Of a stretch of DNA of 21,941 nucleotides, positions 15,447 to 18,217 are shown piece after piece. Under the pieces are notes generated by a model that worked only from the letters and a program-made list of their open reading frames with translations, ran no database searches and was not told where the DNA came from. The DNA comes from a virus: positions 1 to 21,941 of IMG/VR virus record IMGVR_UViG_3300044675_001159. One strand, given 5' to 3'. Made by a program: the position numbers and the translations under genes. Every line of letters starts with the position of its first letter. The first letter of the stretch is position 1.

Positions 15447-15623
15447 TCATTTTCCTTTACTTAAATATTCTTCAATCATTGCTTCTTTGTCATCATCGTA
15501 TAAATCCTCAAAAGGTACGAAGTGATTTTCTCCACAGCATGAGCCAGTTGTTTTAGGTTCTGTGCAGTAGCAGCAGTAGTCACCATGCGATAAATCTTTG
15601 ATTGCGTCTTGTCTTGTAATCAT
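15447..15623 (-). CDS. Small Cys-rich protein, possible zinc binder
   Basis: The start at 15623 (MITRQDAIKDL) overlaps the stop of the upstream gene (ATGA) and gives 58 residues; a GTG at 15656 in the same frame is less likely. The Cys residues are grouped: CCYC, then SCCGENH with a His after the second group, which could form a zinc site. The C-terminal half is acidic and helical (EDLYDDDKEAMIEEYL). I recall similar phage proteins without known function. Its end codes SKGK while supplying AAAGGAA as ribosome site for ERF. Confidence 0.65.
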   Translation of the reverse strand: MITRQDAIKDLSHGDYCCYCTEPKTTGSCCGENHFVPFEDLYDDDKEAMIEEYLSKGK

Positions 15624-15775
15624 TGGATTCTTTCGATAGGCTTTGCTACAAGCCACTTGTCACCCAACTGGCGTACTGACTTGACCCATTGCTTTTGGTA
15701 GCTTCTAATGACCTCTGGAGGGGCATCATAGGTGCGGAATATCTTACGGACATGGGTTAGGTAGTGTGTGTTCAT
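15620..15775 (-). CDS. 51-residue basic unknown protein
   Basis: The ATG at 15775 overlaps the previous stop (TAATG), and the TGA overlaps the next start (ATGA). The 51-residue product is basic and Trp/Tyr containing: MNTHYLTHVRKIFRTYDA, then PPEVIRSYQKQWVKSVRQLG and DKWLVAKPIERIQ. Tight coupling on both sides and the position in the operon support it. No family is recognised. Confidence 0.65.
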   Translation of the reverse strand: MNTHYLTHVRKIFRTYDAPPEVIRSYQKQWVKSVRQLGDKWLVAKPIERIQ

Positions 15776-15867
15776 TAGCCTCTCCAAGCCAGTAGTACAC
15801 CGATACCGCCAAAGATAACGATGGCTAACACATACTCAACTAGCGTCTGAATAATCTTACTTTTCAT
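15775..15867 (-). CDS. 30-residue membrane microprotein, first gene of the minus operon
   Basis: The ATG at 15867 has AGGAA six bases upstream. The frame encodes 30 residues: MKSKIIQTLVEYVLAIVIFG, then GIGVLLAWRG. A basic N-terminus is followed by one membrane helix with a Gly-rich end. Its TAA overlaps the next ATG (TAATG). It is the first gene after the minus-strand promoter, a place often used by phage host-takeover or regulatory peptides. Function is unknown. Confidence 0.6.
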   Translation of the reverse strand: MKSKIIQTLVEYVLAIVIFGGIGVLLAWRG

Positions 15868-15886
15868 TTTGATTTCCTTAAAAATA

Positions 15887-15908
15887 CCCACTTACGTTTT
15901 GTTGTGGG
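15887..15908 (-). promoter_or_regulatory. Weak hairpin in the leader of the minus operon
   Basis: CCCAC and GTGGG form a five-base stem with a 12-base loop, followed on the minus strand by TATTTTT just before the AGGAA ribosome site. It may be a weak attenuator or leader structure of the recombination operon transcript. The stem is short and may not be functional. Confidence 0.3.
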
Positions 15909-15917
15909 CTGAGACGG

Positions 15918-15945
15918 ATTGTAGAGAGTTCTTAACAGATTGCAA
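15918..15945 (-). promoter_or_regulatory. Promoter of the minus-strand recombination operon
   Basis: On the minus strand, TTGCAA (15940-15945, 4 of 6) and TACAAT (15918-15923, 5 of 6) are separated by 16 bases. The start would lie near 15910, about 45 bases before the ATG at 15867. The spacer holds CTGTTAAG, close to the CTGTTTAG found at the plus-strand promoters, so one regulator may bind both. Confidence 0.55.
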
Positions 15946-15990
15946 GATATTTATGTAGGTGTTTTCCCTAAAAACAACAAATAGTTTCTT

Positions 15991-15999
15991 TGCTATACT
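15991..15999 (+). promoter_or_regulatory. Extended -10 promoter of the Cro-like gene
   Basis: TG-C-TATACT forms an extended -10 element with no good -35 at the usual distance. The predicted transcription start, seven bases downstream, falls on the A of the ATG at 16006. No ribosome site lies upstream of that ATG, so the transcript is probably leaderless, as for the lambda repressor made from PRM. Confidence 0.55.
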
Positions 16000-16016
16000 G
16001 TTTAGATGGATAAACA
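15999..16016 (+). promoter_or_regulatory. Palindromic operator candidate over the cro-like start codon
   Basis: TGTTTA at 15999-16004 and TAAACA at 16011-16016 form an 18-base inverted repeat with a six-base centre. It overlaps the last base of the -10 and the start codon. A small HTH protein binding here would block its own promoter. Autoregulation is inference. Confidence 0.5.
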
Positions 16017-16158
16017 AACTGCTATCACACTTGCTGGCTCACAGAGTGAGCTTGCTAGAATACTTGGAATAGAAAGGTCTGCCGTTCACCAATGGAAGAC
16101 CATTCCTCCTCTACGAATTTATCAACTTAAAGAACTCAGACCAGAGTGGTTCAAATGA
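16006..16158 (+). CDS. Cro/YdaS-like helix-turn-helix regulator
   Basis: This 50-residue protein starts MDKQTAITLAGSQSELARIL and contains a helix-turn-helix: SQSELARILGIERSAVHQW at about 12-30, with recognition helix RSAVHQWK. The C-terminus (PPLRIYQLKELRPEWFK) resembles Cro/YdaS-type repressors. It lies at a divergent promoter pair, as cro does. It would control both early operons. No cI-like partner is visible in the window. The stop overlaps the next start by ATGA. Confidence 0.8.
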   Translation: MDKQTAITLAGSQSELARILGIERSAVHQWKTIPPLRIYQLKELRPEWFK

Positions 16159-16523
16159 CACAAGAAGCAGTTATCCGATGCCTACAAAACGGCCCACTAA
16201 CATCCTACCAACTAGAGGATTTAACAGGCATACCAAGACTATCTATTGCAGCTTGTTGCACCAAGATGAGTTACAAGAAGAAATTAAAAATTGGGAAAAT
16301 TAAGTTAGGACGTTCTTGGGTTTCTCAGTACACCTTAGAGCCACATATGATTGAGGCTCAAAAGGCTGCCAATGATGAGCCTTACGACAAGCTAAACCCA
16401 TTCGACATTCGCAATGCCAAGGGTATCTTTTCTAAGGCTGAATATGCGGTTATGAACGCACAAGCTAAAAGATTGCTTGGCAAATCGTTTTCACAAGATA
16501 TTACAAATAACCAGTTTATTTGA
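16155..16523 (+). CDS. Winged-helix-like DNA-binding protein
   Basis: The ATG at 16155 overlaps the cro-like stop (ATGA), giving 122 residues; a GTG at 16146 is less likely. The N-terminal 60 residues (QEAVIRCLQNGPLTSYQLED, then LTGIPRLSIAACCTKMSYKK and a beta pair LKIGKIKLGRSWVSQY) have the length and pattern of a winged helix. The C-terminal part is charged (NPFDIRNAKGIFSKAEY). A role in early gene control or replication is likely but unproven. Confidence 0.6.
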   Translation: MTQEAVIRCLQNGPLTSYQLEDLTGIPRLSIAACCTKMSYKKKLKIGKIKLGRSWVSQYTLEPHMIEAQKAANDEPYDKLNPFDIRNAKGIFSKAEYAVMNAQAKRLLGKSFSQDITNNQFI

Positions 16524-16529: not shown

Positions 16530-16638
16530 GTTTTGAAACACGGCTAGATGCGAAGTCATGAGCGCATTGAAAAGGGTTCCCACTTTTTCCCCTGCCGAGG
16601 TTTCTTTCTTTTTAAGTGGCTTTTAAAGTGGAAATTCT
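16530..16638 (+). promoter_or_regulatory. Structured 5' leader of the replication gene
   Basis: The 110-base leader has no gene. GATGCG (from about 16547) can pair with CGCATT near 16564. CCCACTTTTT at 16579-16588 can pair with either of two downstream copies, AAGTGG at 16614-16619 or AAAGTGG at 16625-16631. The second copy overlaps the ribosome site (AGTGGA) of the ATG at 16639, so the two pairings would expose or hide that site. A switch or attenuation role is inference from these complementarities. Confidence 0.4.
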
Positions 16639-17421
16639 ATGCACTACTATCAGCATCATATTGGTGACTTCATCAAGGATACATCGTTCTTGACCAATGA
16701 AGAAATCGGTATTTATCTCAAGTTAATTTGGCTTTATTACGACTCTGAAAAGCCATTGCCAAACAATTTATTTGAACTTGGCATGAAGACAGGAACAAGG
16801 GACAACCAAGTTGTTCTTGAGGGTCTTTTAGAGATGTTCTTTATTCTTGATGAGCAGAATAAATGTTGGAATCACACTAGATGCGACAAAGAACTTGAAC
16901 ATTACAAACAGCAATTAACTACTGCTTCTAAGGCTGGAAAAGCATCAGCACTTAAACGAGCGATGAACAAGAATCCAACGAGCGTTGAACAGACGTTAAA
17001 CGAGCGTTCAACAGAGGTTCAACCAACCAATAACCAACAACCATTAACCAAGAACCAAGAGAAGAAGACACTCGGCAAACGCCTCGCTTCTGATTTTAGT
17101 TTTCCAAAAGAATGGGAAGAATTCTGTCAAACAGAACGCCCAGAACTTAGCCCTGTAAAAACCTTTGACCAGTTTAAGGATTACTGGATAGCTCAAGCAG
17201 GTCAAAAGGGTGTAAAGCTGGATTGGTTTGCTACTTGGCGTAATTGGGTGAGAAGCACTAACGCACCAAAGCAAAACCCTGCCGACATTGTGAGGCTCAC
17301 AGTTCCGAGCAGAAATGAGCCTGACCCTGCTTTGGAAAAGATTAAAGCTGATGCGAAAAAGGCTGCACCATTGCCAGACCACATTCGTCTGATTATGCAA
17401 AACATGAAAGGCAGGTCATGA
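16639..17421 (+). CDS. DUF1376-type phage replication protein
   Basis: This 260-residue protein has a YdaU/DUF1376-like N-terminus: MHYYQHHIGDFIKDTSFLTN, EEIGIYLKLIWLYYDSEKPL and WNHTRCDKELEHYKQQ, followed by a KAGKASALKR motif typical of the family. A Gln/Asn/Thr linker covers about 110-145. The C-terminal domain has FPKEWEEFCQTERPELSP and FDQFKDYWIAQAGQKGVKLD, then WFATWRNWVR, as in phage replication-initiation (O-like) proteins. It likely loads the host helicase at the phage origin. No ATPase motif is present. Its stop overlaps the methyltransferase start by ATGA. Confidence 0.8.
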   Translation: MHYYQHHIGDFIKDTSFLTNEEIGIYLKLIWLYYDSEKPLPNNLFELGMKTGTRDNQVVLEGLLEMFFILDEQNKCWNHTRCDKELEHYKQQLTTASKAGKASALKRAMNKNPTSVEQTLNERSTEVQPTNNQQPLTKNQEKKTLGKRLASDFSFPKEWEEFCQTERPELSPVKTFDQFKDYWIAQAGQKGVKLDWFATWRNWVRSTNAPKQNPADIVRLTVPSRNEPDPALEKIKADAKKAAPLPDHIRLIMQNMKGRS

Positions 17422-18203
17422 ATGAGTTGGCATTATTTGCGGGGGGGGGGGAGGAATCCTTGCAGGACATTTGCTCGGATGGAGAACTGTGTGTGCCGTT
17501 GAAATCGAAGATTACCCACGCAGAGTTTTACTGCAACGGCAAGCTGATGGATTCTTACCTAGATTCCCTATCTGGGACGACATTTGTACATTCGATGGAA
17601 AGCCTTGGGCAGGAAAAGTCGATGTCATCTCAGGTGGATTTCCCTGTCAGGACATTAGTGCCGCAGGAAAAGGCGCAGGACTTGACGGAGAAAGGTCAGG
17701 ACTCTGGGGAGAAATGGCAAGGGTCATTCACGAAGTACAGCCCAGATTCGTATTCGTGGAAAACTCACCAATGCTCACTTCTAGGGGACTTGGACGAGTT
17801 CTTGGAGACTTGGCCACAATGGGGTTTGATGCGAGATGGGGAGTGTTGGGAGCATCAGACGTTGGAGCGAAGCATGAAAGGAAGCGAATCTGGATTGTTG
17901 CCAGACAACCAAAATTTCTTTCACACGCCCAACACAACAGGATTAGATGGTGGGAGCAACAGCAGAAAAGCCTTGAAGAAAAGAATTTCAACATGGCCAA
18001 CACCAACGACTCCGAGTGGAGGAGGGAATGTAGGCGGTTCTGGAGCGTACAAAAATGCAATCAAGAATGGGACTCACATTCCACATTCGATAAACCCGAG
18101 CCTATACGAATGGTTGATGGGGTGGCCAATAGGGTGGACAGACTTAAAGCCATTGGAAACGGACAAGTGCCATTGTGCGCTGCAACAGCATGGAGAATCC
18201 TAA
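17418..18203 (+). CDS. Alternative-frame ORF overprinted on dcm (261 residues)
   Basis: With 11 G as written, translation from 17418 stays open for 261 codons in the frame not used by the methyltransferase. The product begins MNELALFAGGGEES and contains FPVRTLVPQEK, SYSWKTHQCSLLGDLDEF, LETWPQWGLMRDGECWE, STWPTPTTPS and LYEWLMGWPIGWTDLKPLE. I recall proteins of this appearance in phage databases, where they may be either real overlapping genes or mis-called dcm shadows. The absence of stops is notable but does not prove translation. Function is unknown. A -1 shift on the G-run would move ribosomes from this frame to dcm. Confidence 0.4.
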   Translation: MNELALFAGGGEESLQDICSDGELCVPLKSKITHAEFYCNGKLMDSYLDSLSGTTFVHSMESLGQEKSMSSQVDFPVRTLVPQEKAQDLTEKGQDSGEKWQGSFTKYSPDSYSWKTHQCSLLGDLDEFLETWPQWGLMRDGECWEHQTLERSMKGSESGLLPDNQNFFHTPNTTGLDGGSNSRKALKKRISTWPTPTTPSGGGNVGGSGAYKNAIKNGTHIPHSINPSLYEWLMGWPIGWTDLKPLETDKCHCALQQHGES

Positions 18204-18217
18204 GTGAATCACTTTGA
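17418..18217 (+). CDS. dcm: C5 cytosine DNA methyltransferase, frameshifted at an 11-G tract
   Basis: The start at 17418 overlaps the replication gene stop (ATGA) and encodes MNELALFAG, the beginning of motif I. The rest of motif I (ILAGHLLGWRTVCAVEIE) is in a different frame after 11 G at 17441-17451; 9 or 12 G would restore it. Downstream, motif IV is SGGFPCQDIS (near 17633-17659) with the catalytic Cys, motif VI is VENSP (17756-17770; ENS instead of the usual ENV), and motif VIII is KRIWIVA. The final block, RLKAIGNGQVPLCAATAWRIL, has the motif IX/X pattern. The reconstructed protein is about 265 residues with a short target-recognition region. It would methylate cytosine for protection from host restriction. 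Confidence 0.85.
17441..17451 (+). repeat. Poly-G tract of 11 in dcm motif I
   Basis: Eleven consecutive G lie between GC and AGGAATCC. Such tracts slip in replication, transcription and translation, and are also prone to sequencing error. Length modulo three decides whether the start codon reads into dcm (9 or 12 G) or into the alternative frame (11 G). Confidence 0.95.

Follow-up and report, generated by a model that had tools for sequence, protein, structure and literature searches.

The gene that begins at position 16006 of the window (the whole 21,941-nucleotide stretch of viral DNA that we analyzed) is probably a leaderless cro of the P22/N15 type that heads a rightward early operon and is transcribed from an extended -10 promoter with its start at the A of the ATG. 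In the mechanism that we propose, the gene would encode a short Cro repressor, and the phage, which is probably lytic, would carry, opposite cro, a leftward operon that includes ERF- and SSB-like genes. Host RNA polymerase would use the extended -10 promoter, and the resulting mRNA would be translated from its 5'-terminal AUG, as are the mRNAs of lambda cI and PY54 cro. It is reasonable to infer that Cro would act back on the segment from about 15920 to 16060. The features discussed below are collected in Table 1.

A first-pass annotation of this DNA had described an extended -10 element, TGCTATACT, ending seven bases before the ATG. The element is present, but the gap is six bases long (GTTTAG). 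In sigma-70 promoters the usual start site is the seventh base after the -10. A spacer of six bases therefore places the A of the cro ATG at this usual start site. The in-frame TAG at 16003 rules out a longer cro reading frame in the window. The annotation had also stated that no ribosome site precedes the gene, and we found the same: pairing with the anti-Shine-Dalgarno (anti-SD) sequence was +1.5 kcal/mol, the weakest among the 36 listed window starts that were compared for SD and -10 sequences, two of which had been entered at slightly wrong positions. A missing SD is not special on its own, since eight other starts among the 36 were likewise above -2 kcal/mol. A -10 hexamer with at most one mismatch, 4 to 8 nt before the start, was found for cro only (1 of 36). 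The pattern TGNTATA[AC]T occurs three times on the plus strand of the window and not at all on the minus strand. A promoter scan of positions 15600 to 16300 that required a -35 did not list the cro promoter because no -35 hexamer lies at the right distance from its -10; the promoter would have to act as an extended -10 promoter. The candidate promoter for the leftward operon is not above chance.

Table 1. Features around the start of the cro-like gene, in window positions
Feature	Positions	Strand	Remarks
Candidate promoter (weak) for the leftward operon, TTGCAA-16-TACAAT	15918-15945	-	Scan: 1 found versus 1.3 expected by chance
Second perfect inverted repeat, TGTTTT-N5-AAAACA; its core is the CCCTA block	15960-15976		CCCTA-like block in 135/151 promoters
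Extended -10 element of the predicted cro promoter, TGCTATACT	15991-15999 (hexamer TATACT 15994-15999)	+	No recognisable -35
Palindrome over the cro start codon, TGTTTA-GATGGA-TAAACA	15999-16016		Perfect arms; haplotype-specific
cro-like gene, 50 aa, predicted leaderless	16006-16158	+	Predicted transcript start, A at 16006; Pfam, fold, SD absence
Coding palindrome GCTCAC-AGA-GTGAGC, codons 11-16	16037-16051		Perfect arms in 137/167; synonymous constraint
Next gene of the rightward operon	16155-16523	+	ATG overlaps the cro stop (ATGA); no Pfam match

The description of the gene as Cro-like was supported. Its product is a P22-type Cro protein of short length: it matched the Pfam profile P22_Cro (PF14549) at 41 bits (cut-off 30.2) and YdaS at 36.2 bits (cut-off 30), it matched PHROG 409 (transcriptional regulator), and it matched P22 Cro by sequence with an E value of 0.0039. 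An AlphaFold2 (AF2) model built from 22 sequences (pLDDT 90.5) predicts an all-helical helix-turn-helix (HTH) fold with four helices in 50 residues. The best rows of the PDB comparison were N15 Cro on its operator (Z 7.0), N15 Cro (6.8), P22 Cro (6.3) and Xfaso 1 Cro (6.1), with CP-933P YdaS at Z 4.4; by the tool's own note, Z scores under 8 are middling. The profile score and the predicted fold both place the protein with the P22-type Cros, and the fifth helix known from N15 Cro is absent from the model.

Leftward of cro lie genes for an ERF annealing protein, an SSB-like protein and a MazG-like protein; rightward, the gene that overlaps the cro stop is followed by a DUF1376 primosomal-type protein and a cytosine methylase. 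We sought two families expected of a lambdoid CI/Cro switch, tyrosine integrases (PF00589) and CI-type S24 repressors (PF00717), in 26 relatives of 31 to 37 kb, records whose completeness is not stated, and found each in 0 of 26. One relative lies within a contig of a Comamonadaceae metagenome-assembled genome (MAG). The first gene opposite cro appears to be an unlisted leftward open reading frame (ORF) of about 30 aa (15775-15867, minus strand), hydrophobic by eye and with an AAGGA ribosome site.

Two further features were observed downstream. A structured RNA related to Rfam int-alpA (RF02996) precedes the DUF1376 gene (16535-16604, plus strand). The window copy scored 24.1 bits (E 0.0028), below the gathering score of 35.8, which 2 of 10 related loci pass (L012 and L065). 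RNAalifold on 38 sequences of this RNA gave 18 pairs, 5 of them changed on both sides. Of 45 distinct contexts, 35 place a -10-like hexamer 5 nt ahead of the first base of the RNA, as though the RNA were served by a promoter of its own. The cytosine methylase gene carries, close to its start, an 11-G run (17441-17451, plus strand) at a place where two overlapping frames are open (17418-18203 and 17471-18217). Among relatives (7 distinct contexts) this run varies in length or is broken up, and the reading frame changes with it; this variation may be either phase variation or sequencing error.

Relatives of the cro region came from IMG/VR, in five scans guided by protein sequence, and from GTDB contigs, in one such scan. 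Where 406, 156, 385, 379 and 215 relatives were found, the best 80 of each were kept, and many loci were the same contig refetched. The 281 usable loci, including the window and its copy L081, gave 151 distinct promoters (-60 to +12) and 167 distinct coding sequences, and all counts on these two sets are drawn from the best-80 relatives. Six distant database relatives of low identity (L083 to L088) and two loci with short upstream sequence (L158 and L184) were left out. Because the loci share ancestry, the counts do not represent independent events; the upstream regions fell into 16 groups on loose clustering. As controls we used 772 distinct, mechanically called ORF starts of at least 100 aa from the same sequences.

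A -10 hexamer lies 5 to 7 nt before the cro ATG in all 151 distinct promoters, the window included. The distance is 6 nt in 138, 5 nt in 11 and 7 nt in 2, and the hexamer is TATACT in 139, TACAAT in 6, TAAAAT in 3, TATAAT in 2 and TACACT in 1. The spacer between -10 and ATG takes 72 different sequences, with little information at most positions. Constancy of distance without constancy of sequence is expected if transcription starts at the AUG, and it supports the leaderless reading. The cro-type -10 pattern, which had been picked after inspection of the data, was found before 0 of the 772 control starts. Anti-SD energies of -4 kcal/mol or better, calculated with the last 3 nt before the ATG omitted, were reached by 0 of 151 cro starts versus 41% of the controls, a share that is lowered by wrong starts among them. 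In 119 of the 151 promoters, again including the window, an in-frame stop precedes any upstream start codon. The start codon was ATG in 167 of 167 distinct coding sequences, as located by a finder that took ATG only. The claim of the first-pass annotation that the mRNA begins at the start codon is therefore well supported as far as comparison of sequences can carry it, although a leader of 1 to 3 nt on the cro mRNA is possible, given the purine at -2 in most 6-nt spacers and the G-rich letters in which many spacers end.

Several observations speak against our explanation: the promoter lacks a -35, 128 of the 138 spacers of 6 nt have A or G at -2, 32 of the 151 promoters have an upstream in-frame start codon before any stop, the 50-residue protein has no fifth helix like that of N15 Cro, and PY54 Cro seems not to repress itself (PMC4488713). 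The absent -35, together with the purine-rich spacers of many relatives, could also mean that the main cro transcript starts further upstream, with an ordinary leader or by read-through, and that the ATG-adjacent -10 is secondary. We consider this highly unlikely, given that the distance from -10 to ATG is fixed in every promoter despite the variable spacer, and that such a leader would have no SD to use at any of the 151 cro starts.

The second half of the first-pass interpretation was that the TGTTTA-N6-TAAACA palindrome, which does span the edge of the -10 and the ATG with perfect arms, mediates self-repression: Cro would bind it and shut off its own leaderless mRNA. Binding there would block RNA polymerase. 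The palindrome taken alone is not beyond chance, as positions 15869 to 16030 hold 2 perfect 6-bp inverted repeats (spacer 0 to 10) where shuffles give 0.65 (P 0.17). Across the whole window there are 61 such repeats, fewer than the 72 ± 7 of shuffled sequence. Of the 151 promoters, 20 carry the left arm of the palindrome, GTTTAG; the right arm is coding sequence, translated as D-K-Q. Comparison over 49 residues showed five protein sequences that occur both with GTTTAG and with other promoters; the window's own Cro protein is among them, with the palindrome in L004 and without it in L008. The protein therefore does not need the start-codon palindrome in these relatives. On the basis of this poor conservation and of identical proteins with different promoters, we rejected the palindrome as a conserved operator, and self-repression through it does not stand as a conserved mechanism. 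An operator specific to the GTTTAG promoter haplotype is possible. Of the 20 GTTTAG promoters, 19 are followed by GAT, the codon needed for a complete right arm, versus 34 of 131 others, but given the tight linkage of this codon to the promoter, descent may explain the association. YdaS of CP-933P binds 18-bp repeats with the consensus GTTTAGTAA (PMC8630535), but the spacing of the palindrome is unlike that of those repeats. Taken together, the full model of the annotation seems unlikely to us.

A better-conserved element lies further upstream. The CCCTA-like block is most often at -40 (55 of the 135 promoters that have it). In the upstream regions, CAACA/TGTTG motifs reach 1.89 per promoter versus 0.46 in shuffles (150 promoters), a fourfold excess. 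The arrangement CAACA-N3-TGTTG just upstream of the -10 is far above chance among promoters with at least 110 nt of upstream sequence (21 of 150 versus 0.07 expected), but it is absent from most promoters, and we rejected it as a general operator. We likewise rejected co-adaptation between promoter types and Cro alleles, since both types occur with one and the same protein. In the region 15868-16005 and its relatives, promoter haplotypes appear reassorted with respect to cro alleles: each of five Cro sequences is combined with at least two promoter types. This pattern points to recombination among the phages close to the start of cro.

If Cro represses itself, its target is more likely to be an element shared between haplotypes, in the CCCTA region or at 16037 to 16051, than the start-codon palindrome. 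At the latter site, codons 11 to 16 read GCTCAC-ARA-GTGAGC, and in the 30 of 167 distinct coding sequences with arm mismatches, 16 by E15A, no compensatory pair is listed. Synonymous differences were fewer in codons 3 to 16, a range picked after inspection of the data, than in codons 17 to 49 (0.16 versus 0.49 of pairs in 167 sequences; permutation P 5e-5). Between two clades of 98 and 68 sequences (one sequence left out), codons 3, 4, 11, 12, 14 and 15 differ in 0.00 to 0.05 of pairs, and most codons after 16 differ in 0.5 to 0.99; values are lower at codons 24, 28, 29, 39, 40 and 47, and three codons could not be compared. In control genes of the same loci, the corresponding values for codons 3 to 16 and 17 to 49 were 0.37 and 0.46 for DUF1376 (64 sequences), 0.20 and 0.37 for ERF (67 sequences), and 0.46 and 0.33 for SSB (57 sequences); part of the constraint on cro codons may thus be ordinary for gene starts. 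Two control-gene patterns gave no matches in the same loci. In a sample of 60 of the 167 sequences, the hairpin folded better than synonymous controls (paired probability 0.78 versus 0.55; mean z -1.25), and the window alone gave a z of -1.89 against shuffles, so that an RNA hairpin at the coding palindrome is modestly favored. An Rfam search of 15850 to 16250 gave four matches, all with E above 1. The first cro codons bear a weak resemblance to an antitermination site, on which we base no claim.

An operator array of coding palindromes was considered and rejected: the window has one perfect copy, and five others at 3 mismatches are within chance. When up to 2 mismatches were allowed in 26 relatives, 22 had one perfect copy, 3 had a one-mismatch copy of the same core, and one (the record of L071) had neither; some of the weaker matches were recurrent.

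A DNA site, an RNA hairpin and plain constraint at 16037 to 16051 look alike so far. That the coding palindrome is not regulatory at all, and was conserved through slowly changing gene starts or through homogenizing phage recombination, has in our estimate slightly less than an even chance. This account fits the slower start of ERF in the same loci, the exchange of promoters and cro alleles between phages, the uncompensated mismatches and the single copy in the window. The contrast within cro nonetheless exceeds that of DUF1376, SSB shows the opposite pattern, and codons 11, 12, 14 and 15 differ in just 0.02 to 0.05 of between-clade pairs. A more speculative proposal, which we regard as unlikely, is that the first 48 nt of the leaderless mRNA form a compact control element kept across clades, consisting of the AUG, an open A/C-rich start and the coding palindrome, and bound by Cro or another factor. 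The factor would then bind 16037 to 16051 either as DNA, as a roadblock centered at +39, or as an RNA hairpin, in feedback or antitermination of the early operon; the regulator's first codons would hold its control site, and upstream promoter haplotypes would be exchanged freely.

A few phage regulators are already known to be leaderless. An environmental phage group that keeps this layout makes leaderless initiation testable by comparison and supplies a set of natural promoter variants. The group also illustrates that a start-codon palindrome can be specific to one promoter haplotype, with a better-conserved site lying inside cro.

The closest protein relatives are the Cro proteins of P22 and N15 (PF14549; PDB 1rzs, 2hin and 6on0), which the window protein resembles in profile and in predicted structure. 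It differs in having a shorter C-terminus and in that no CI gene was found beside it; N15 Cro, the all-alpha type that dimerizes through its C-terminal part, has five helices (PMC4488713). In the immunity region of CP-933P, the likeness extends to the YdaS profile match, a leaderless regulator in a divergent region and GTTTA-type half-sites, but the leaderless gene there is the CI analogue paaR2 and not the Cro-like YdaS, and the operator spacing differs (PMC8630535). The comparison of the first-pass annotation with lambda cI transcribed from PRM, also a leaderless regulator mRNA (PMC8630535), is apt for translation, but cI is a lysogeny repressor, whereas in the window it is a Cro-type gene that is predicted to be leaderless. 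Of the leaderless transcripts in Burkholderia cenocepacia, 24 are tRNAs, and the remainder is enriched in regulators (PMC4603805). A closer precedent than lambda cI is the cro gene of PY54, an N15-like telomere phage of Yersinia, in which both cro and cI are leaderless by rapid amplification of cDNA ends (RACE), the cro mRNA starts at the AUG, a strong promoter lies just upstream of the cro start codon, and Cro is of the all-alpha type (PMC4488713). PY54 differs in being temperate, with a CI, and its Cro, which requires its C-terminus, binds a single 16-bp site upstream of cI (PMC4488713), whereas the window protein has 50 residues and four predicted helices. Leaderless cro is thus already known from PY54, and the cro described here adds a broadly conserved leaderless case.
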